A stretch of DNA of 64,000 bases from NCBI GenBank assembly GCA_024643365.1, contig JAHENC010000001.1, forward strand, positions 124,001-188,000, in the 5' to 3' direction. Of this stretch, positions 794 to 63,967 are shown piece by piece. A program made the position numbers and the translations under genes. A model generated the notes under the pieces. It made no database searches. It saw only the letters and a list, made by a program, of their open reading frames with translations, and was not told where the DNA came from. The first letter of the stretch is position 1; each line of letters starts with the position of its first letter. Source of the DNA: Crocinitomicaceae bacterium. Lineage in GTDB: Bacteria > Bacteroidota > Bacteroidia > Flavobacteriales_D > Crocinitomicaceae.

Positions 794-3700
794 ATGAGAA
801 AAATTCTTGCTTTTCTGATTCTCTCCATTTGTCATGTAGTAACTGCACAAATAACAATCAACGAGGGCTGTAATAAAAATTACCTATCCTCTACCGACGA
901 AAATGGCGATGCCAGTGATTGGATTGAATTACATAACGCTGGAACAACCTCTGTCAATCTAGTTGGATATGCTTTATCAGACAAATTGACCGTTCCAAAT
1001 ATGTGGATTTTGCCGAATATCAATATTCCTGCAGGTGGATTCCAACAAATATTTTGTAGCCAGAAAAATCGTTTTGGCTCTACCCCTTTTCAATTTGGTA
1101 TTTCAGAACAAAATTTCACTCCACAAGTCGGATGGAGTCAACATCAGCTTGCAACTCCATTTTATTGGGATGGCGTTTCAAACGTGGTTATCAACGTTTG
1201 TTCTTATAACAATTCACAATACACGGAGAACTCGATCTTTAAACAAACGGCTACTCCCTACATTTCAACGATTGGTAGTTTTATCGATGGGAGTCCGGCA
1301 GCATGCTCTGCCAGCAATGCTTCCACTTATTACCAACGTCCAAACATCAAATTGAATAATGCGGTCATCGGTAACGGAACAATTCAAAATGGGAACACTG
1401 AATATCCAGCTCCTTTTGGGAATTGGTACTGGGGTGCGCGTCATCAAATGCTCATTAGAGCAAGTGAATTAATTTCGTCTGGATTGTCAGCAGGAATGAT
1501 TAATTCCATCGGATTCGAAGTTGCCTGGACTAACGGTGAGAATTACACCTATGTCGATTTTCACCTAAATACCACAAGTTTAACGGAACTCACCAATGAA
1601 TTCATTCCCGTACAAGGAAACCTGATTCACACCAATTTCAAACTAGACGGTAGCGGAGAAACGGTTTATTTATTTGACCCTTCGCAACAATTGGTTTCTA
1701 GTCTAACCGTTGAATCACCAGCAGCGGATATTTCTATTGGACGAACCCCGGATGCTTCATCAACGATCAAATGGATGAACCCGAGTCCTGCGAGTACCAA
1801 TAACAGTAGTTCAGTTTATTCGGATAGCCTATCTCGCCCAATTAGCTCTCGTATTTCTGGAGTGGTAAATTCCAGTTTCTACTTGAAGTTATCCCATAAT
1901 AACACAGTTCCATCTAAACTTGTTTACACAACCAATGGTTCGGAACCGACCTTTACTTCCACAACCTACACGGACTCTATTTTTGTATTTCAAAAAACAG
2001 TGATTCGCGCCAAAGTATTTCCCTTGAATGTCAATAGTACTTACCTTCCTAGTCAACAAACAGTAGTTACCTTTTTGTTTAATATCAGCCATGACACACC
2101 AATTTTGATGGTAACTACTGATCAAAGCAATCTTTATGGTTCCACGGGTATTTTTGATAATTGGTCGAGTGATTGGATAAAACCAGCACATGCGGTTTAT
2201 TTGAATGAAGGCCTTGGACACCCATTCCTGTTTGAACGTAAAACAGCCATCCGCATGGATGGAGGAGCCGGAGGGAGCAGGTCAAATCCACAGCATTCGT
2301 TTAGACTTTCATTTGATCATGGTGCGCTTGGACAAGCACCTGTTCATTATCCACTGATTCCAGATCGTCCGGATAGAACAAAATACAGTGATATTTACCT
2401 TCGCAATGGCAGTAACCAATACTTGAACCTACCTTACAAGGACGCGAGTCAAGTTCGCATGATGAGCGAAGGAACCAAAAATTACTATTCCGCTTATCGT
2501 CCGGTGAGTGTGTACATTAACGGTTCCTATTTTGGACTCTATGAACTAAGGGAAAAATTCAACTCCGAGTACTTTGAACTTCAAGACGGAGCAAATAAGG
2601 ATTCGTTGGAATTATTGTCCTTAAGTTATTGGTACAACCTAGTTTTACGAGCTGTAGAAGGAGATGTCGATAATTTTTGGGACTCATATGCTGATTTTCA
2701 AGTATTGAATCCTTTGGCTCCAAGTTATATGAGCGACGCTGATCAATACTTCGATTTAAAACATTACTCGGATTACATCATCGCAGAATCATGGATGGGA
2801 AATGTAGATTGGCCTGGAAACAACATTAAAATTTACCGTTCGGACAAAACCAATTGGCGCTGGCGTTTTGCCTTGATCGATCTTGAACTATCGATGCAAC
2901 CGAATGGGTGGACAAGCTGTACAGATAACCACATCAATTATATGTTGGGACAAAGTACGGACCTACCTTTTATTAATATTTGGTTAAAAAGCATACAAAA
3001 CACGAAATACAAAAACTATTTTATCAATCGCTTTGCTGATTTAATGAATACCAGTTATCAAACGGATGTGTTATTAGCGAGAGAAAACATGTTCTTTGAA
3101 TCCATGGTAACTGAAATGCCAAACGAATATGCACGTTGGGGAGATCCTAATAACATTGCCGGTCAAATGCAAACGTTTGTGAACAACCATGAAGTTTTCC
3201 AAGATCAATTGGCTTGTCGAAATGAAGTTGTTTTTGATAACATCAAAACTGGATTTGGCTTGGTAAAAACAATCGAAGTGAACCTTGAAGTCTACCCGGA
3301 AAATGGAGGAGAAATCGCCTTGAATACCATTCAACCGGCAACTTATCCATGGAATGGAACCTACTTTGATGGGGTTCCTGTGAACATGACAGCAATCCCG
3401 AAACCAGGATACTCATTCTCCCATTGGCTTCCTTCGGCATTTGTAAACGACACGTTGCAGGATTCCTTGTCCACGAACATTACGGCTACAAACGGATTCT
3501 TTACTGCCATATTTAAACTAATCCCACCGCCACCAGATGGACCAGACATTCATTTTACGGTTGCACCGAATCCATCGAATGGAACGTTTGTTTTAACGCA
3601 TGACAACAAAACGAAAGCGACGGGTTGCACCTATGAAATCTTTGATTTGAGCGGACGAATAATTACGCGTGGAACAGTCAACAATACCGCATTAGAAACA

Positions 3701-3796
3701 CCGGTATCGATTCCCGAAATGCGCTCAGCGGTTTATATCTTGCGAGTGAACAAGAAGGAAGAAGTATTGTCGACGTTTAAGGTATTGAAGTACTAG
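794..3796 (+). CDS. Secreted lamin-tail domain / CotH-kinase family protein with T9SS type A sorting domain
   Basis: Signal peptide MRKILAFLILSICHVVTAQ; N-terminal LTD 'ITINEGCNKNYLSSTDENGDASDWIELHNAG'; CotH-like 'RMDGGAGGSRSNPQHSFRLSF', 'YINGSYFGLYELREKFNSEYFELQDGANKD', 'RWRFALIDLELSM'; C-terminal 'VAPNPSNGTFVL...GRIITRGTV...VYILRVNKKEEVLSTFKVLKY'. Confidence 0.85.
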   Translation: MRKILAFLILSICHVVTAQITINEGCNKNYLSSTDENGDASDWIELHNAGTTSVNLVGYALSDKLTVPNMWILPNINIPAGGFQQIFCSQKNRFGSTPFQFGISEQNFTPQVGWSQHQLATPFYWDGVSNVVINVCSYNNSQYTENSIFKQTATPYISTIGSFIDGSPAACSASNASTYYQRPNIKLNNAVIGNGTIQNGNTEYPAPFGNWYWGARHQMLIRASELISSGLSAGMINSIGFEVAWTNGENYTYVDFHLNTTSLTELTNEFIPVQGNLIHTNFKLDGSGETVYLFDPSQQLVSSLTVESPAADISIGRTPDASSTIKWMNPSPASTNNSSSVYSDSLSRPISSRISGVVNSSFYLKLSHNNTVPSKLVYTTNGSEPTFTSTTYTDSIFVFQKTVIRAKVFPLNVNSTYLPSQQTVVTFLFNISHDTPILMVTTDQSNLYGSTGIFDNWSSDWIKPAHAVYLNEGLGHPFLFERKTAIRMDGGAGGSRSNPQHSFRLSFDHGALGQAPVHYPLIPDRPDRTKYSDIYLRNGSNQYLNLPYKDASQVRMMSEGTKNYYSAYRPVSVYINGSYFGLYELREKFNSEYFELQDGANKDSLELLSLSYWYNLVLRAVEGDVDNFWDSYADFQVLNPLAPSYMSDADQYFDLKHYSDYIIAESWMGNVDWPGNNIKIYRSDKTNWRWRFALIDLELSMQPNGWTSCTDNHINYMLGQSTDLPFINIWLKSIQNTKYKNYFINRFADLMNTSYQTDVLLARENMFFESMVTEMPNEYARWGDPNNIAGQMQTFVNNHEVFQDQLACRNEVVFDNIKTGFGLVKTIEVNLEVYPENGGEIALNTIQPATYPWNGTYFDGVPVNMTAIPKPGYSFSHWLPSAFVNDTLQDSLSTNITATNGFFTAIFKLIPPPPDGPDIHFTVAPNPSNGTFVLTHDNKTKATGCTYEIFDLSGRIITRGTVNNTALETPVSIPEMRSAVYILRVNKKEEVLSTFKVLKY

Positions 3797-55177: not shown

Positions 55178-55185
55178 TAAATTTG
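55178..55185 (+). promoter_or_regulatory. Putative -7 element (TAAATTTG) of the 55.3-64.0 kb gene block
   Basis: TAnnTTTG match about 118 nt upstream of the first ATG; no clear -33 TTG, second direct repeat sits in that zone. Confidence 0.45.
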
Positions 55186-55302
55186 TTTCAACTTTTTACG
55201 TGTCCTCCTTGATGCATCTATGCTGAAACCACTTAAAAAGAATAATAACTTCATGACTTTGTAACGACAAAAAAAGATCATGTTGCTTGTTTTTATTGGA
55301 TT

Positions 55303-56361
55303 ATGAAAAAAATTTTACTGTTTATCACAAGTGTATTAACACTGAATGCAACTGCTCAAAATTGTTCTGAATTATTCATTTCTGAGTACGTAGAAGGATG
55401 GTCAAACAACAAAGCCTTAGAAATTTACAATCCAACTGCCAATCCGATCAATCTGAGTGGTTACTTTGTTTCACGCTATTCTAACGGTGCAACGACAGCA
55501 ACTGTTGCTAATTCCGTTCAATTATCAGGAACGATCGCTGCGCATGACGTATATGTTGCCGTTCTAGACAAACAAGATCCAAACGGAACAGGACAAGAAG
55601 CTCCTATTTGGGATTCTTTGCAAGCACGTGCAGATGGATTTTATTGTCCAATCTACAACACGTCAAACTCATTTTATTGGAATGGTAACGATGCCATTAT
55701 GTTGGCAAAAGGAACTTTGCCTTCATCAGCAACAACGTTAATCAATGCTACGAATGTACCAGGATTCGCCATTGTTGACCTTTTAGGAAAAATTGGAGAG
55801 AATCCCGCGAATGAAACGGGAACGTCATCTGGAAACGACGGAGCATGGTCAACACAGTTTCCTTACAGCACAGGATTAGGTGTATTGATTACGAAAGATC
55901 ATTCAATGATTCGCAAATCAACAATTGTTAAAGGATCTACAACAAATCCTTCGTTTTTTGACCCACTTTTAGATTACGATTCGATTCCACCAGTAATTGT
56001 TCGTTTAGATGCTAACGGAGATACCCTTTATGGAACAAGCGGAAATCCAATCCTAGATGGAAACTGGAGCTCACTTGGAACACACAACTGTTCATGTAAC
56101 CCTGCAGCAGTAAATGAAAATGAAGTGAGTTCATTAAGCGTATATCCTAACCCAAGCAACGGAATTGTAAATATCAAAAGCAACGGAAGTATTCGTAAAA
56201 TACAAGTTTTAAACTCACTTGGACAAACCATCTACACTCAAGCGAATATCGGTTCAAAACCAGTTATCTCTCTTGATTTAAGCGAATTCAGTGGTGTTTA
56301 CATCATTCGAATCACAGATCTTAACGGACAACAATTGATCCGTAAAATCATCTTAAGATAA
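55303..56361 (+). CDS. Secreted lamin-tail domain protein with T9SS type A sorting domain
   Basis: 'CSELFISEYVEGWSNNKALEIYNPTANPINLSGYFVSRYSNG' LTD; C-terminal 'LSVYPNPSNGIVNIKSNGSIRKIQVLNSLGQTIYTQANI...GVYIIRITDLNGQQLIRKIILR'. Confidence 0.88.
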   Translation: MKKILLFITSVLTLNATAQNCSELFISEYVEGWSNNKALEIYNPTANPINLSGYFVSRYSNGATTATVANSVQLSGTIAAHDVYVAVLDKQDPNGTGQEAPIWDSLQARADGFYCPIYNTSNSFYWNGNDAIMLAKGTLPSSATTLINATNVPGFAIVDLLGKIGENPANETGTSSGNDGAWSTQFPYSTGLGVLITKDHSMIRKSTIVKGSTTNPSFFDPLLDYDSIPPVIVRLDANGDTLYGTSGNPILDGNWSSLGTHNCSCNPAAVNENEVSSLSVYPNPSNGIVNIKSNGSIRKIQVLNSLGQTIYTQANIGSKPVISLDLSEFSGVYIIRITDLNGQQLIRKIILR

Positions 56362-56393
56362 GTACGACAATTTATTGTCCTACTCGAAAAACG

Positions 56394-59141
56394 ATGAAAT
56401 ATTTTATTCTTATTCTGTTCGCATGCTTTACTGAATGGAGTTTCAGTCAGGCTACTGCTAAAATCACTGGTGAAGTCAGTGAAAATGCTACGAATCAACT
56501 TTTAAGTGGCGCAAAAATCACCCTTTACAACAATAAAGGTATAGTGATGAAAAGGGCCATGTCGAACTCGCAAGGGATTTACGAAATGACCGACGTGACC
56601 TACGGCGATTATTCCATTACGTTCAAAATGATGGGATTTGACTCAATGGTTCAGGAAATTCAAGTTTCTAAACCCATTTTGACTGTCAATTTTTTCATCG
56701 GAGCAAGTCAAGAATACCGCGAAATAAAAGTCATCGGTAATTTAGCAGGTTCACAAAATGTTCCCGTCGCGGTTACTAAAATACCTTTACAAAAAATTAC
56801 TGAAGAACTTGGCTCACGTGATTTGCCCATGTTGCTAAATGGAACCCCAGGAGTCTATGCCACACAACAAGGAGGTGGAGACGGAGATGCACGAATCAAT
56901 GTGCGTGGATTTGATCAACGCAATGTTGGTGTGATGATCGATGGTGTTCCTGTAAACGACATGGAAAATGGCGCTGTTTATTGGTCCAATTGGTTTGGAT
57001 TAGATGCTATTACAGCTCAAATGCAAGTGCAACGTGGACTCGGAGCAACTAAAATTGCCATGCCATCAATTGGTGGAACAATTAATATCATTACCCAGGG
57101 TGTTTCCAATAAACCAGGTGGGTCTTTCCGTCAGGAATATGGTACTGGAAATTTATTACGCTCTACCCTATCCTATAATACTGGAATGACGAAATCTGGT
57201 TGGGGATTAACTTTTTCCGCATCCTATAAACAAGCGGATGGTTGGGTATATGGAACTCCAAGTCAAGGTAAATTTGGGTACCTCAAGGTGTCAAAGAAAT
57301 TGGACAAACATCTAATGACTTTATCTGCTTTTGCTGCACCACAAGAACATGGTCAACGATCATACACACAAGCCATACAATATTTTGATGAGGCAACAGC
57401 TCGAGATCTTGGGGCGCCGATCGACACGAATATGATTTTCTCAAATATGGGTATTCGCTTCAATCAACATTGGGGATATCAAACAGATAGTAACGGAGAA
57501 AAACAAATCCTTAACGAACGACTTAATTTCTACTCTAAACCTCAGTTTACCTTAAAGGATTTTTGGACGGTCAATGATAAATTGTCCATATCAAACATTG
57601 CCTATGTTTCTGTTGGTCGCGGTGGTGGGACAAGCATATTCAATTCAAGTGCTTTACTTAGAGATTCGACTGGATTGATTAATTGGGATTTAGTCATCAA
57701 AGAAAATCAAGTTAATTCGCTTTTTGGCACTCCAAATACTGACCCTATTTATCATCCAACGGAGATTAAATCAAGTCAAATTTTGTATGCAAGTATCAAC
57801 AATCATTTTTGGGCAGGATACTTGAGTCAATTTAATTACACCTACTCTAAAAAATTAGAGTTTTCTGGTGGGATTGATTTTCGTTATTATCAAGGATCAC
57901 ATTATCAAGTGATCACTAATTTATTAGGGGGCGACTATTTTGTAAGTACGGCGGATAAAAACGATGCGGATCCAATGCAACGTGTAGGAGATAAAATTGC
58001 AAAAAATGCATTTAATGCAGATCGTGATGGAATTGTACAATGGACCGGAGCATTTGGACAAATGGAATATACCGGAAAGAAATTATCCTACTTTGTAAAT
58101 GTATCAGGAATTTTGAATGGGTATAAAGGAGTAGATCGTTTTCAAAAAAGAGTATTGGACTTGGGAGATACGGTTTTGAGAATTGGTGCGTTAGACACCA
58201 TTACTTATAATGGAGAGACGTATGATGCGAGTAATAAAAATCTTAAGTATTACGCTACAGATTGGAAATTCCTCCCTGGTTTTACCTTTAAATCTGGTTT
58301 GAGATATCAGGTGCAAAAAAATGCGACTGCTTACATCAATGTTGGATACCTAAATCGAACTCCACAATTCTCAAATGTCATTGATAACAACACCAATAGT
58401 TTCTTTGGAGAAATCGTCAATGAAAAGATTCTCTCTGCAGAGGGTGGTTATAATTATGCAAAAGAGAAGTTCGGATTCAATGTCAATGCGTATGCGACGA
58501 ATTGGAAAAATAAACCTTTTCCTTACGGAGTAGCAGTTCCTGATCCAAATGATCCAACAGAATTTATTCGCATTAACATTAATGGAATGGATGCTGTTCA
58601 CCTTGGAGGAGAATTTGATGCAGCTTTCAAGTTTTCTAAAAAACTTTCTGGTGACGTTATGGTATCCATTGGACAATGGTATTGGAATTCTTCTAAGACA
58701 GTATTTGTTCCACAATATGATTCACTCGAATTTAGTTTCGATGCAAAAGGTGTTCACGTAGGTGATGCCGCACAAACTGCAATGGCTGCCGCTTTAAGGT
58801 ACGAACCAATTAAAAATGGTTACATCAAGCTGCAACTGCAATATTTTGATCGCTATTATTCAAACTTTGATCCATTCACGCTTCAAGGAGTCAATGGTGG
58901 TCGAGATTCTTGGAAAATGCCATCATATGCTCTATTGAATGTATTTGCTGGATATAAAATTCCATTTAAAACATTCTCCTTACTAACAACAGCAACAATC
59001 ACAAACGCCTTAAATACCAAGTATATTTCAGATGCAACGAATAACGCAAATGATATCTACAACACCTTCGATGCTCAGTCAGCCAGCGTCATGTTTGGAG
59101 GTGGATTTCGCTTTAATGTTTCACTCGCAATTCAATTTTAA
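56394..59141 (+). CDS. TonB-dependent receptor with N-terminal carboxypeptidase-regulatory-like domain
   Basis: 'ITGEVSENATNQLLSGAKITLYNNKG', plug 'LPMLLNGTPGVYATQQGGGDGDARINVRGFDQRNVGVMIDGVPVNDMENGAVYWSNW', C-terminal barrel ending in aromatic residue 'FNVSLAIQF'. Confidence 0.93.
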   Translation: MKYFILILFACFTEWSFSQATAKITGEVSENATNQLLSGAKITLYNNKGIVMKRAMSNSQGIYEMTDVTYGDYSITFKMMGFDSMVQEIQVSKPILTVNFFIGASQEYREIKVIGNLAGSQNVPVAVTKIPLQKITEELGSRDLPMLLNGTPGVYATQQGGGDGDARINVRGFDQRNVGVMIDGVPVNDMENGAVYWSNWFGLDAITAQMQVQRGLGATKIAMPSIGGTINIITQGVSNKPGGSFRQEYGTGNLLRSTLSYNTGMTKSGWGLTFSASYKQADGWVYGTPSQGKFGYLKVSKKLDKHLMTLSAFAAPQEHGQRSYTQAIQYFDEATARDLGAPIDTNMIFSNMGIRFNQHWGYQTDSNGEKQILNERLNFYSKPQFTLKDFWTVNDKLSISNIAYVSVGRGGGTSIFNSSALLRDSTGLINWDLVIKENQVNSLFGTPNTDPIYHPTEIKSSQILYASINNHFWAGYLSQFNYTYSKKLEFSGGIDFRYYQGSHYQVITNLLGGDYFVSTADKNDADPMQRVGDKIAKNAFNADRDGIVQWTGAFGQMEYTGKKLSYFVNVSGILNGYKGVDRFQKRVLDLGDTVLRIGALDTITYNGETYDASNKNLKYYATDWKFLPGFTFKSGLRYQVQKNATAYINVGYLNRTPQFSNVIDNNTNSFFGEIVNEKILSAEGGYNYAKEKFGFNVNAYATNWKNKPFPYGVAVPDPNDPTEFIRININGMDAVHLGGEFDAAFKFSKKLSGDVMVSIGQWYWNSSKTVFVPQYDSLEFSFDAKGVHVGDAAQTAMAAALRYEPIKNGYIKLQLQYFDRYYSNFDPFTLQGVNGGRDSWKMPSYALLNVFAGYKIPFKTFSLLTTATITNALNTKYISDATNNANDIYNTFDAQSASVMFGGGFRFNVSLAIQF

Positions 59142-59143
59142 TT

Positions 59144-61408
59144 ATGACAAAAGGAATACTTAGTTTTTTCGCTTTATTCACTGTTCTCAGTTTAAAAGCT
59201 CAAACCATTTCTCAAGTTCGAAACTTAGGAATCGGTCAAACAGTTACCGTTACTGGTGTAGTAACGAATGGTAGTGAACTTGGTAGTATCCGCTACTTGC
59301 AAGATGGAACGGCTGGAATCGCTTGTTACGGAAGTTCTTTATCTTCGGTTCAACGTGGAGATTCAATTACCGCTACTGGGGTATTATTTGACTTCAGTGG
59401 TTTACTCGAACTTTCTCCTACGAATAGCTTTATCAATCATGGTCCAGCAGTACTACCTTTAGCCCAAACAATTCCCTTCACAAGTGGAACGGAATCTTTG
59501 GAAGCGCAATTGGTGCGTTTTGACAACGTAACTTTTGTTCAAACTGGAAACTTTGCCACTGGAAATAGTACGGTTCAAGTTTCAAATGGAACAAGCACGT
59601 TCGATGTTCGTGTAAACGGTTCAACAAACATTGACGGGACAGCCATTCCAACGGGACCCATTTCCATTGTTGGTCTGCTCGGACAATTCAACGCGAATTA
59701 CCAAATTATACCAAGAAATTTATTGGACATTTTCCCATACGTTGCGCCGGCAAGAGAGATTAACGTGAAAGTAAACGGTTCAACTGTGCTTAATAACGAT
59801 ACGTATATCGTAGGAACCACTGCTGCTACGAATGTGATAATTGAAAATACAGGGGTTTCAGCCTTGACACTTTCAGGTGTAACATTTACAGGTGCAAACG
59901 CCTCTGAATTCGGAATTAACTTAACAACTGGAACAGTTGCGGGATTGGGAAGTAATAGTTACTCATTGACATTCACTCCAACAGGTACAGGTACACGCAC
60001 AGCGACCATTTCCATTGCCAACAATGACAGTGATGAGAATCCATACATCATCAACTTGTACGCAATTGGTACAAATAACCTTGCAACAGAACCAACTTCT
60101 AATCCATCGAATTTAACCTTCCCTTTAATAAAAGCGTATACAATCGCGGGACAATACACAGCAGGAACCAATGCTGAAAATTACCTTGTTCTTTGGAAAA
60201 ATGGATCTGTAGTTACAGGAATACCAACAGATGGAACTAGCTACAAAAGAGGAGACGTTATTGGAGATGCACGTGTGGCATATATCGGAAGTGGAACGGG
60301 ATTCACACCACGTGGAATCATTGCCAATCAAAACTACCATTTTGTTGTTTACGCATTCAATGGTCCTGCTGGATTTGAAAATTACAAAACAACTTCTCCT
60401 GCCATCGGAAACGTTACAAGTCAAGGAGAACAAATCGGAAACTATTATGCTGGAATCACTTCTGGTTCAACTACGTTTTTAAGTGACTTAAGTGCATTGA
60501 TTAATCCTCACACAGTTGTTTCTTATTTCAATTACAAAACAACAGTGATGAATCAATTCGAGATTCGCGATACAACGAACGGACAATCTTTCGTGACCTG
60601 TGTCTATTCAGGTGAACGCAAAGTATTTGATGAACCATTTGACTGGTCAGCTCAAGGATATTCTCGTGAGCACTCATATTGTCACTCTTGGATGCCTACA
60701 TTCCCTTGTGATAATCCTGAGCAACCAGAATACAGTGACCAACACAACTTATGGCCTACAAACTTGCAACAAGCAAATACGCCAAGAAGTAATCTTCCAT
60801 TAATGGACATCGATGGAAATGTGGTATTTACTTACTTAGAAGGAAGAGTCGGATATAGCGGAAATCAGTTGGTTTACGAGCCTCGTGCAGCACAAAAAGG
60901 AAATGCGGCGCGTTCTATCTTTTACATGGCAACAGCTTACAACGGTCAAGGTGGAAACAACTGGCAAATACCAACAAACCAGAGTCAAGAGTCTTTGAAA
61001 ACATGGCACTTTAATGACCTCCCTGATAATTACGAAATCGCTAGAAATGAATTTATCTTCAGCAAACAAGCAAATAGAAATCCATATGTTGACTCTGTAA
61101 ATTTCGCTTGTCACGTTAACTTTGCAAACATGTCTTATTTAGTTTGTGACGCTGGAATCGATGAGAAATTAGCTGCTAATTTCACCGTTTTCCCAGTTCC
61201 AACCTCCAATAAATTATTTGCTCAGGTGAATGGATTAGACATTGTTGAATACACCATCACGGATATGCAAGGCAGAGTAATTAAATCGTCTTCTAATATT
61301 CAAGTTCCCGTTTTAGAATTGGGGACAACTGAATTCAAATCTGGAATGTACCTACTACAAGTTGGGACAACATTCGGTCAAGTTCAACGTGAATTTATCG
61401 TCGAGTGA
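59144..61408 (+). CDS. Secreted endonuclease I family nuclease with N-terminal OB-fold-like and choice-of-anchor-D-like domains and T9SS type A tail
   Basis: 'VRNLGIGQTVTVTGVVTNGSELGSIRYLQDGTAGIACYG'; 'NVIIENTGVSALTLSGVTFTGANASEFGI'; EndoI 'YSREHSYCHSWMPTFPCDNPEQPEYSDQHNLWPTNLQQANTPRSNLPL'; tail 'FTVFPVPTSNKLFAQV...GMYLLQVGTTFGQVQREFIVE'. Confidence 0.9.
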   Translation: MTKGILSFFALFTVLSLKAQTISQVRNLGIGQTVTVTGVVTNGSELGSIRYLQDGTAGIACYGSSLSSVQRGDSITATGVLFDFSGLLELSPTNSFINHGPAVLPLAQTIPFTSGTESLEAQLVRFDNVTFVQTGNFATGNSTVQVSNGTSTFDVRVNGSTNIDGTAIPTGPISIVGLLGQFNANYQIIPRNLLDIFPYVAPAREINVKVNGSTVLNNDTYIVGTTAATNVIIENTGVSALTLSGVTFTGANASEFGINLTTGTVAGLGSNSYSLTFTPTGTGTRTATISIANNDSDENPYIINLYAIGTNNLATEPTSNPSNLTFPLIKAYTIAGQYTAGTNAENYLVLWKNGSVVTGIPTDGTSYKRGDVIGDARVAYIGSGTGFTPRGIIANQNYHFVVYAFNGPAGFENYKTTSPAIGNVTSQGEQIGNYYAGITSGSTTFLSDLSALINPHTVVSYFNYKTTVMNQFEIRDTTNGQSFVTCVYSGERKVFDEPFDWSAQGYSREHSYCHSWMPTFPCDNPEQPEYSDQHNLWPTNLQQANTPRSNLPLMDIDGNVVFTYLEGRVGYSGNQLVYEPRAAQKGNAARSIFYMATAYNGQGGNNWQIPTNQSQESLKTWHFNDLPDNYEIARNEFIFSKQANRNPYVDSVNFACHVNFANMSYLVCDAGIDEKLAANFTVFPVPTSNKLFAQVNGLDIVEYTITDMQGRVIKSSSNIQVPVLELGTTEFKSGMYLLQVGTTFGQVQREFIVE

Positions 61409-62115
61409 TCCGAAGAAACAGCATACTTTTTTTGATTGGAGCAAGCCTTGTGGCTTGCTCTTCTCATTTGGTCGTATTACCTTCAAGTGGAAAAACGGCC
61501 ATTCTTGAAAAGAATCGAGAGCAAACGGTCATCAAAGAAGCTATTCAACCCTATAAAGACTCCGTTGAAAAAGTCATGAGTACTGTAGTGGCAATAGCCC
61601 CAATAGATTTTGAAAGCGGAAGGCCAAATAGCCTACTTGGAAATTGGACCGCTGACGCATTATTTGCAAATCAAACTCGGACAGTACGCATGAGTGAGCC
61701 TGTTTTCTGCTTACTAAGTATCGGTGGACTAAGGTCTTCCATCGGAAAAGGGAACGTGACGCGGGGGGATATCTTTCGACTAATGCCCTTTGACAACCAA
61801 GTCGTGTGGATACGTATGCCTATTGCAAGTTTAACAAAAATTGAAAATTATCTGAATCAATCTGGTGGTGAGCCAATTTCAAATGCACAGCTCATTCAAG
61901 GAAAACTCGTACTTAACGGAATTCAAGAAAACACCACACATTTTTGGGTGATAACGAGTGATTACTTAGCAAACGGTGGAGACCGCATGGACTTTTTTCT
62001 CGACGCTATAGACCGACAACAAAAACCTCAATTATTACGAGATATTTTTATGTCAGAATGTCAACTTCAGGGAGAACTCATTGCTTCTCCTGAAAAACGG
62101 ATCCAACTAAAATGA
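61405..62115 (+). CDS. Lipoprotein 5'-nucleotidase C-terminal domain protein
   Basis: Lipobox 'ASLVACSS'; 'LGNWTADALFA', 'LLSIGGLRSSIGKGNVTRGDIFRLMPFDNQVVWIRM', 'FWVITSDYLANGGDRMDFF' typical of the 5'-nucleotidase C-terminal domain. GTG start overlapping the upstream stop. Confidence 0.88.
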   Translation: MIRRNSILFLIGASLVACSSHLVVLPSSGKTAILEKNREQTVIKEAIQPYKDSVEKVMSTVVAIAPIDFESGRPNSLLGNWTADALFANQTRTVRMSEPVFCLLSIGGLRSSIGKGNVTRGDIFRLMPFDNQVVWIRMPIASLTKIENYLNQSGGEPISNAQLIQGKLVLNGIQENTTHFWVITSDYLANGGDRMDFFLDAIDRQQKPQLLRDIFMSECQLQGELIASPEKRIQLK

Positions 62116-63014
62116 AAAGACGCAGTTTCTTAAAAACAAGTATTCTCGGTTCTAGTGCGTTTGTACTGCTTTCTTCTTTTCGTTTGAATCGATCTTTTCA
62201 TGCATTGAAAGAAAAGAAGTTGGTCATTTTGCACACGAACGATACGCATTCGCAAATTGAACCATTCCCTGCAAATCATCCCAAATATGCCAACAAAGGT
62301 GGCGTGGCTAAACGTGCACAATTAATCGAGGAAATACGCCAACAAGAGGAACATGTTCTTCTGCTAGATTCCGGAGATATTTTCCAAGGCACACCCTACT
62401 TCAACATCTTCCATGGTGAATTGGAAATGAAACTCATGAGCGCCATGAAGTATGACGCAGCAACGATGGGGAATCATGATTTCGACATCGGTTTAGATGG
62501 TTTTTTGAAAGCAAAACAATTTGCCAATTTTCCATTTTTGTGTGCGAATTACGATTTTTCTGAAACATCTTTAAAAAATCAAACCAAGGCCTATCATATT
62601 TTTCGTAAAGCGGGATTGAAAATTGGTGTTTTTGGCATTGGAATCAAATTGGAAGGATTGGTTCCATACGATAAATTTGGAAAAACAAAATACCTTGATC
62701 CAATTGCTGTTGCTAATCAGACAGCAAAAGAACTGTATGGAAAAGGCTGTGATTTCATCATTTGTTTATCACACTTAGGTTATAGCTATTTAGAGTCAAC
62801 TAAACCTAGTGATGTCAAATTAGCAGCGGAAAACGAGCACATCGATTTAATTCTTGGGGGACATACCCACACGTTTATGGATGCACCGGCGACTTTTGAA
62901 AATAAAGGCGGAAAGAAAACGGTTGTCCATCAGGTTGGATTTGGCGGAATCTATTTAGGACGCATTGACATCAGCTCGACTCATGTTTCTTGCCGCAAAC
63001 AGAGCATCGAATAA
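62112..63014 (+). CDS. Tat-type metallophosphatase (5'-nucleotidase N-terminal/catalytic domain)
   Basis: Twin-arginine 'MKRRSFLKTSILGSSAF'; 'LVILHTNDTHSQIEPF', 'LLLDSGDIFQGTPYFN', 'DAATMGNHDFDIG', 'IICLSHLGYS', 'DLILGGHTHTFMDAP'. ATGA overlap with the upstream gene. Confidence 0.93.
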   Translation: MKRRSFLKTSILGSSAFVLLSSFRLNRSFHALKEKKLVILHTNDTHSQIEPFPANHPKYANKGGVAKRAQLIEEIRQQEEHVLLLDSGDIFQGTPYFNIFHGELEMKLMSAMKYDAATMGNHDFDIGLDGFLKAKQFANFPFLCANYDFSETSLKNQTKAYHIFRKAGLKIGVFGIGIKLEGLVPYDKFGKTKYLDPIAVANQTAKELYGKGCDFIICLSHLGYSYLESTKPSDVKLAAENEHIDLILGGHTHTFMDAPATFENKGGKKTVVHQVGFGGIYLGRIDISSTHVSCRKQSIE

Positions 63015-63031
63015 TCACCTATCTTTAACCT

Positions 63032-63967
63032 ATGAAAGTTTGGACGGCCTTCTTGTTAATAGCTTTCTTTTCCTGTACCAAGGAAGTAAACATTGACATC
63101 CCCAATTATCAAAACCAATTAGTGGTTGATGGAATCATTGAAACTGGAGGGAATCCAATTGTACTACTTTCCCAAAGTGCTAACATTTATGAAACCAGTG
63201 ATCTTGCCGCGTATCTTTCTCGTTTTGTTTATGACGCACAGCTAAACGTAATATCGGGAAACGACACTTTTCCATTATCCCTGTTTACTATATCCGAACT
63301 TCCGATTGACAGCCAAAAAAAGGTAGCTGAAATGCTTCGTTTAGATTGGAATGAAGCCTTACTTCTTCCGATAAAAGTCTATAGTTCCAACGACTTGATT
63401 GCTCAGGCTAACATTTCCTACACCTTGGAAATCAAACATCTAGGGAAATCATTCAAAGGTACTACTCATTTACCCAATCCCACTCCACTAGATTCGATTT
63501 ACTGGAAACCTGAATCGGGAAATGTACAATATGGTTACTCTTGGGCGCGTTTAAGCGATCCGGCCAATCAATTTGATGGCTATAAATGGGAAGTAAAGCG
63601 CATAAACCTCACAGCGAATGGCGATGAATTGGATAACATCTACAAGCGTGGATATGGTGGATTCTTTTCTGATCAGTTTTTTGATGGTCAAACCATTGAG
63701 TTTTATTACGAGAATCCCTTGAAACGAAAGGACACAACTCATTTAAAGGAATTCAAAAGAATGTACCGTATTGGAGATACCGTGGTCGTGAAATTTTCAA
63801 AAATGGATCAACAGGTATTTTCGTTTTACGATAAAAAATATGCGCAACTGAATTCCGCATCAAGTCCATTTTCAACGCCAATTAACGTGCCTTCAAACAT
63901 ACCAGGATTACTCGGTGTCTGGGCAGGATTCTCTCCATGTTATGATACGCTATATTGCGTGGAATAA
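63032..63967 (+). CDS. DUF4249-like lipoprotein
   Basis: Lipobox 'IAFFSCTKEV'; 'VNIDIPNYQNQLVVDGIIETGGNPIVLLSQSANIYE' pattern of DUF4249. Confidence 0.8.
   Translation: MKVWTAFLLIAFFSCTKEVNIDIPNYQNQLVVDGIIETGGNPIVLLSQSANIYETSDLAAYLSRFVYDAQLNVISGNDTFPLSLFTISELPIDSQKKVAEMLRLDWNEALLLPIKVYSSNDLIAQANISYTLEIKHLGKSFKGTTHLPNPTPLDSIYWKPESGNVQYGYSWARLSDPANQFDGYKWEVKRINLTANGDELDNIYKRGYGGFFSDQFFDGQTIEFYYENPLKRKDTTHLKEFKRMYRIGDTVVVKFSKMDQQVFSFYDKKYAQLNSASSPFSTPINVPSNIPGLLGVWAGFSPCYDTLYCVE

Follow-up and report, generated by a model that had tools for sequence, protein, structure and literature searches.

Introduction

Extracellular DNA constitutes a large pool of phosphorus, nitrogen and carbon, and Bacteroidota are leading degraders of DNA. 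YhcR of Bacillus subtilis combines an OB-type part, a nuclease and a 5'-nucleotidase domain in one chain. The extracellular DNase ExeM of Shewanella carries LTD, OB and nuclease parts in a single polypeptide, of which the OB part is essential and the LTD helps (PMC6085458). Marine Bacteroidota feed on DNA by means of secreted nucleases and periplasmic nucleotidases (PMC8289736); TonB goes unmentioned in the main text of that paper. Transformation of Riemerella anatipestifer requires both RS04915, a CarboxypepD_reg outer-membrane protein, and RS04920, the DUF5689 protein encoded next to it, and adjacent homologues of the two occur in Flavobacteriaceae (PMC8459023). In the open-licence literature we found no account of how DNA fragments cross the outer membrane of Bacteroidota, and no description of a locus of the LTD-receptor-nuclease kind, although an earlier description in a subscription paper is possible.

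We describe here a cluster of six genes from a Crocinitomicaceae genome, found in a 64,000-nucleotide stretch of DNA that was analysed as a whole and is termed the window. The cluster is probably a locus for the use of extracellular nucleic acid, in which DNA is cut at the cell surface and a TonB-dependent receptor imports the products. Its core unit consists of the LTD protein, the receptor and the nuclease.

The locus

The source genome is 2.53 Mb and 99.9% complete, and its closest named relatives are metagenome-assembled genomes of Crocinitomicaceae. A sequence-only reading of the window had proposed six plus-strand open reading frames (ORFs); all are present at the coordinates that it gave, and Pfam returns the domains that it named. 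With two upstream elements, the features are:

55178-55185, + strand: candidate promoter -7 box, TAAATTTG, fitting the Bacteroidota pattern TAnnTTTG
55190-55244, + strand: structured 5' leader RNA, proposed from covariation
55303-56361, + strand: LTD gene, 352 aa ORF
56394-59141, + strand: TonB-dependent receptor gene, 915 aa ORF
59144-61408, + strand: nuclease gene, 754 aa ORF
61405-62115, + strand: 5'-nucleotidase C-domain gene, 236 aa ORF, GTG start
62112-63014, + strand: 5'-nucleotidase metallophosphatase gene, 300 aa ORF
63032-63967, + strand: DUF4249 gene, 311 aa ORF

Gaps of 32 and 2 bases separate the LTD gene from the receptor gene and the receptor gene from the nuclease gene; the C-domain gene overlaps the endonuclease I (EndoI) gene before it and the metallophosphatase gene after it by 4 bases each, and a gap of 17 bases leads on to the DUF4249 gene. 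A profile search of the genome found Endonuclease_1 in a single copy, in the nuclease gene adjoining the receptor, and DUF5689 also in a single copy, in that same gene; because the genome's only copies of both domains lie there, a chance neighbourhood is ruled out. A tRNA scan of the window found none, and scans for sigma-70 promoters and for terminators gave matches not above those in shuffled sequence. Outside this locus, positions 794-3796 (+) of the window encode another LTD-like protein, which also carries a CotH kinase domain and a type IX secretion system (T9SS) tail.

The encoded proteins

The LTD protein has Pfam matches to LTD (1.2e-14) and Por_Secre_tail (7e-12), and one region of it aligns with the LTD portion of the ExeM nuclease (NCBIfam NF033680, 1.2e-15); it is conserved throughout the phylum Bacteroidota. 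Por_Secre_tail exceeds the Pfam cut-off in both the LTD protein and the nuclease, and NCBIfam assigns a type A tail, so that both are predicted T9SS cargo destined for the surface. The nuclease consists of a DUF5689 OB-type domain (6e-12), an Ig-like domain, endonuclease I (Endonuclease_1, 3.5e-21) and the T9SS tail, as annotated by Pfam. Its EndoI domain matches PDB 1oup, a Vibrio-type endonuclease I, and the motifs REH, DQHNL and RSN are intact; among relatives REH and RSN are each found in 69/70 and DxHNL in 64/70. We predict that the window's enzyme is an active endonuclease I.

The receptor has the Pfam domains CarboxypepD_reg, Plug and TonB barrel. Its AlphaFold model (pLDDT 72.7, with the plug poorly modelled) matches the fold of TonB transporters, among them FhuA, Fiu, PqqU and FecA; the nearest structural matches, transporters of siderophores, PQQ and copper at 10-13% identity, are uninformative on cargo. 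The Pfam matches of the six genes include neither SusD nor any carbohydrate-active enzyme, the hydrolases being Endonuclease_1 and the 5'-nucleotidase domains. The receptor's cargo would be nucleic-acid fragments. Receptor net charge was tried as evidence for a polyanionic cargo and set aside as too scattered: it averages -4.5 in receptors that have LTD neighbours and -12 in the others, and is +8 for the window's receptor; neither the receptor nor the nucleases bear a clear positive charge.

The C-domain protein matches 5_nucleotid_C (1.3e-14) and has a lipobox in 56/57 relatives. The metallophosphatase matches Metallophos (2.7e-18) and the 5'-nucleotidase of PDB 2z1a (2.8e-32); its motifs DTH, GNHD and GGHTH are intact in the window and conserved in relatives. 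The metallophosphatase and the C-terminal substrate-binding domain of UshA-type 5'-nucleotidases are thus both present, across two genes, and the pair is predicted to form such an enzyme. In the window (61405-63014) and the Crocinitomicaceae relatives that carry the pair, the C-terminal-domain gene comes first, the opposite of the order in single-chain enzymes. The metallophosphatase has a Tat signal, KRRSFL, with the RR motif in 51/57 relatives, and TatC is encoded in the genome. Lipobox, twin-arginine motif and TatC together place dephosphorylation, by prediction, in the periplasm, after passage of the outer membrane. Of the two sites originally suggested for this enzyme, surface or periplasm, the Tat signal thus favours the periplasm; the lipoprotein has no obvious surface signal. 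The last gene encodes a DUF4249 lipoprotein (Pfam DUF4249, 9e-23).

Conservation of the locus

A receptor orthologue is found in about half of 58 same-family genomes. The five genes from LTD to metallophosphatase keep the same order and strand in 25 of 27 wide family loci, where receptor identity is about 38-92%; the exceptions are L055, without the nucleotidase pair, and L064, ended by a contig end. The six genes had been read together as one uptake system; as a conserved unit this needs narrowing: the core is LTD, receptor and nuclease, the nucleotidase pair is conserved at family level and DUF4249 mostly at genus level. Of the 27 loci, the three from the window's genus alone have DUF4249, which is otherwise seen in a few named loci from metagenome-assembled genomes (MAGs); its place as a pathway member is not supported. 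The split 5'-nucleotidase is a Crocinitomicaceae addition to the core.

Family-level synteny is weak evidence by itself, because many of these loci also retain the citrate synthase gene (gltA) and a gene for a dipeptidyl-peptidase upstream; the comparison was therefore taken to phylum level. When the receptor alignment was used to scan species genomes, 80 named loci were obtained; they belong to Crocinitomicaceae, other Flavobacteriales, Saprospiraceae, Bacteroidales, Marinilabiliales and Prolixibacteraceae. Outside Crocinitomicaceae the flanking genes differ, but the LTD-receptor-nuclease triad stays: it is present in Flavobacteriales, Bacteroidales, Marinilabiliales and Saprospiraceae. The sequence-only reading was to be given up if gene order were limited to close relatives; for the triad, order is kept phylum-wide.

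Neighbours were counted for receptors scoring at least 950 bits at loci with enough sequence (n=113). An LTD gene lies directly upstream in 110/113 loci and a nuclease or OB-domain gene directly downstream in 109/113; the loci are related and include some duplicates, so these counts are not independent. As the bait was the receptor gene, the nucleases beside it were not built into the search. Five of the six OB-only third genes belong to truncated contigs, and the sixth, in L121, is real. The nuclease precedes LTD in L144 and L146, and L120 and L212 have no nuclease neighbour. The L121 gene (11853-12755, Marinilabiliales, beside an in-clade receptor) encodes OB/DUF5689 and a T9SS tail without nuclease and resembles the Riemerella arrangement. 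The MAGs of L067, L076 and L078 are titled Chryseobacterium gleum and have receptors 65-94% identical to that of the window's genome; these species labels are probably wrong.

A receptor tree of 104 rows was built by a quick method. Triad-bearing rows form one group (82 rows, SH-aLRT 100), which includes L120, L212 and OB-only L121; a sister group of 21 rows has no triad. Some sister receptors adjoin EndoI (L193, L194) or a nucleotide pyrophosphatase/phosphodiesterase (L204), and some have no nucleic-acid neighbours, for example L198, beside phosphoglucose isomerase. A second kind of nucleic-acid locus is seen at L208 (9734-12718, -), where EndoI and a full-length UshA-type 5'-nucleotidase directly precede a sister-clade receptor. 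At L202 (10827-13670, +) a 948-aa protein adjoining a sister-clade receptor unites LTD and OB in one chain; besides two LTDs and DUF5689 it has a plastocyanin-like domain and a T9SS tail. Proteins of 382-560 aa that have no Pfam match directly follow sister-clade receptors at L193 (6226-7905), L194 (6504-7667) and L195 (10630-11775) and may be receptor partners.

Replacement of the nuclease domain

The catalytic domain of the third gene varies. It is a C-terminal EndoI in Crocinitomicaceae, an N-terminal EndoI in several Bacteroidales and elsewhere a two-motif domain of the PLD/Nuc type; the OB/DUF5689 part and the T9SS tail are nearly always retained whatever the catalytic domain. For one PLD version (L111) the best match was MitoPLD/cardiolipin hydrolase, then the nucleases Nuc and NucT, and Zucchini was also matched. 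Mapped on the receptor tree, the presence of EndoI requires 10 changes, and well-supported branches force at least 6 of these; the close sister receptors of L115 (EndoI) and L126 (PLD) have different nuclease domains. The swapping of nucleases beside the same receptor is our strongest argument for a nucleic-acid role.

Leader RNA and candidate promoter

The leader was first detected as a conserved block in aligned upstream regions of four same-genus loci. In the window, helix P1 pairs 55193-55202 with 55230-55239 and P2 pairs 55214-55216 with 55221-55223, around a conserved internal loop, GUCCUCCUUGA / UGAAACC; the Crocinitomicaceae element has 58 nt and 13 pairs. In an 18-sequence alignment 11/13 pairs show changes on both sides, with a covariation of 0.572 against 0.059-0.184 for slid controls. 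In a set of 63 sequences, the alignment of which was fitted to the model, covariation is 0.828 against at most 0.178 for controls. The plus-strand orientation is favoured because G-U pairs on it (57) outnumber mismatches of all kinds (32). The long 5' region folded alone shows no stable structure (z-score +0.75) and the window element alone a modest one (-1.4), so that the case for the leader rests on covariation.

The -7 consensus of Bacteroidota promoters is TAnnTTTG. Such a box lies within 25 nt 5' of the leader in 56/63 loci, starting 9-15 nt before it (11-14 nt in 52/56), compared with 2% in shuffled upstream sequence; since the box sits just before the leader, the leader is probably the mRNA 5' end. 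The box at 55178 thus probably drives transcription of the operon, whose mRNA would start with the leader.

At almost every Crocinitomicaceae locus the leader stands upstream of LTD, and it is matched in 29/31 receptor-positive versus 3/27 receptor-negative family genomes. It was found in none of 58 triad or sister loci outside the family, and a 145-genome class sample gave one weak match (G317, E 0.018); it is essentially confined to Crocinitomicaceae. An Rfam search with the window and the leader gave nothing at gathering score, only chance-level snoRNA and U6 matches (E 0.3-9), and the leader seems to be a previously undescribed structured RNA candidate, not in Rfam.

Second leader copies mostly lie 16-20 nt before large surface-protein genes, and SprB repeats and CHU_C T9SS signals were present in 4/5 of those tested. 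One such copy in the window's genome, at G000:C16:10475-10538(-), precedes an SprB/CHU_C surface protein gene (L247). At L249, L250, L261 and L266 (genomes G014, G048 and G020) the leader stands before other surface-protein-like genes, and the receptor locus is absent. The leader is therefore not specific to the nuclease operon. The proteins behind second copies were considered as LTD homologues and rejected, with a weak N-terminal resemblance (hhalign probability 44%) and no Pfam LTD. Our best guess, somewhat likelier than not, is that the leader controls how mRNAs encoding T9SS surface proteins are translated or how stable they are; a metabolite riboswitch is less likely.

Proposed function and alternatives

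Gene content, conservation, nuclease-domain swapping and the covariation of the leader are results of the comparison; from them we infer how the transporter and the enzymes act, on what substrate, and that the genes are transcribed together and regulated, and propose the following course. T9SS would export the LTD and OB-fold/EndoI proteins to the surface, where DNA, possibly also RNA, would be bound and cut, and the TonB receptor would import the resulting oligonucleotides or nucleotides. In Crocinitomicaceae the two-gene periplasmic 5'-nucleotidase would then release phosphate and nucleosides, and the latter may be taken into the cytoplasm by a carrier of general type, for example the NupG-type symporter encoded in the window's genome. 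CNT nucleoside carriers are absent from that genome, and as candidate co-occurring partners they showed no association, being found in about 16/31 family genomes with the locus and 14-15/27 without. The earlier picture of a nucleic-acid locus built like a polysaccharide utilisation locus (PUL) without SusD finds strong support in the phylum-wide neighbourhood and the repeated nuclease replacement; phosphate does not stand as an established target, though it may be the aim of the locus.

Alternatively, the locus could gain phosphate from the phosphodiesters of cell debris in general, using phospholipids besides nucleic acids: phospholipids are possible substrates of PLD-family domains, L111 matches MitoPLD/cardiolipin hydrolase best, and a nucleotide pyrophosphatase/phosphodiesterase stands beside the sister receptor of L204. 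Yet MitoPLD/Zucchini has itself been reported as a nuclease, the same slot alternatively holds EndoI, for which we know of no lipase activity, and the OB part is of a type that binds nucleic acid, all of which makes this reading very improbable. Secreted nucleases also often act on biofilms, and the locus might remodel matrix or extracellular DNA or serve defence or predation, its receptor taking up an unrelated nutrient or exporting protein; secretion of PopC in Myxococcus is reported to need one TonB transporter. The receptor's place as the invariant middle gene across nuclease types and the recruitment of a 5'-nucleotidase in one family point instead to uptake, and we give this alternative little credence.

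Natural transformation, in which the receptor would pass long DNA through the outer membrane for ComEC to carry onward while the nuclease merely nicks or trims, is unlikely but deserves more thought, given the essential RS04915 and RS04920 of R. anatipestifer (PMC8459023), the presence of ComEC in the window's genome and the placing of that genome's only DUF5689 gene at the locus. Against it, the presence of a 5'-nucleotidase and of two nuclease families, both intact, favours digestion, no nuclease domain is reported for RS04920, and RS04915 homologues are reported from Flavobacteriaceae only, whereas the window's receptor type is phylum-wide. If the receptor is related to the Riemerella pair, it could nonetheless bear on DNA uptake for transformation in Bacteroidota.

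Under the preferred reading, extracellular nucleic-acid use, a receptor clade fixed between LTD and a secreted nuclease offers a concrete, deletable candidate for import of fragments across the outer membrane, and the LTD-receptor-nuclease clade would allow DNA feeders to be predicted from genome sequence. Only tentatively do we extend this to a phylum-wide nucleic-acid counterpart of PULs, with a dedicated (oligo)nucleotide TonB importer, swappable surface nucleases and, in Crocinitomicaceae, a new class of 5' RNA controlling it together with SprB/CHU_C proteins.

Comparison with known systems

ExeM and the window's locus both combine a nuclease domain with an LTD and an OB-type domain. ExeM, however, is a single polypeptide that has an EEP nuclease and lacks a receptor, whereas the window has separate T9SS proteins, EndoI and a TonB receptor between them. 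YhcR differs in being one cell-wall protein of a Gram-positive bacterium, with no receptor beside it; in a control search the DUF5689 model had matches in B. subtilis. The Riemerella pair likewise sets a CarboxypepD_reg outer-membrane protein beside a DUF5689 protein, but no nuclease or LTD gene is reported there and the pair is required for transformation. The window's nucleotidase pair has both 5'-nucleotidase domains of UshA and CD73 with intact motifs, but it is split, in reverse domain order, with one lipoprotein and one Tat-type protein. The DNA-degradation loci of Izemoplasma likewise cluster nucleases, an LTD/nucleic-acid-binding protein and transport genes, with ABC and phosphate transporters and no TonB receptor (PMC8289736). 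SusCD PULs are alike in joining a secreted or surface hydrolase, a TonB-dependent receptor and a periplasmic enzyme in one operon-like cluster; in place of SusD and glycan enzymes, the window's locus has nucleases, a 5'-nucleotidase and T9SS cargo.
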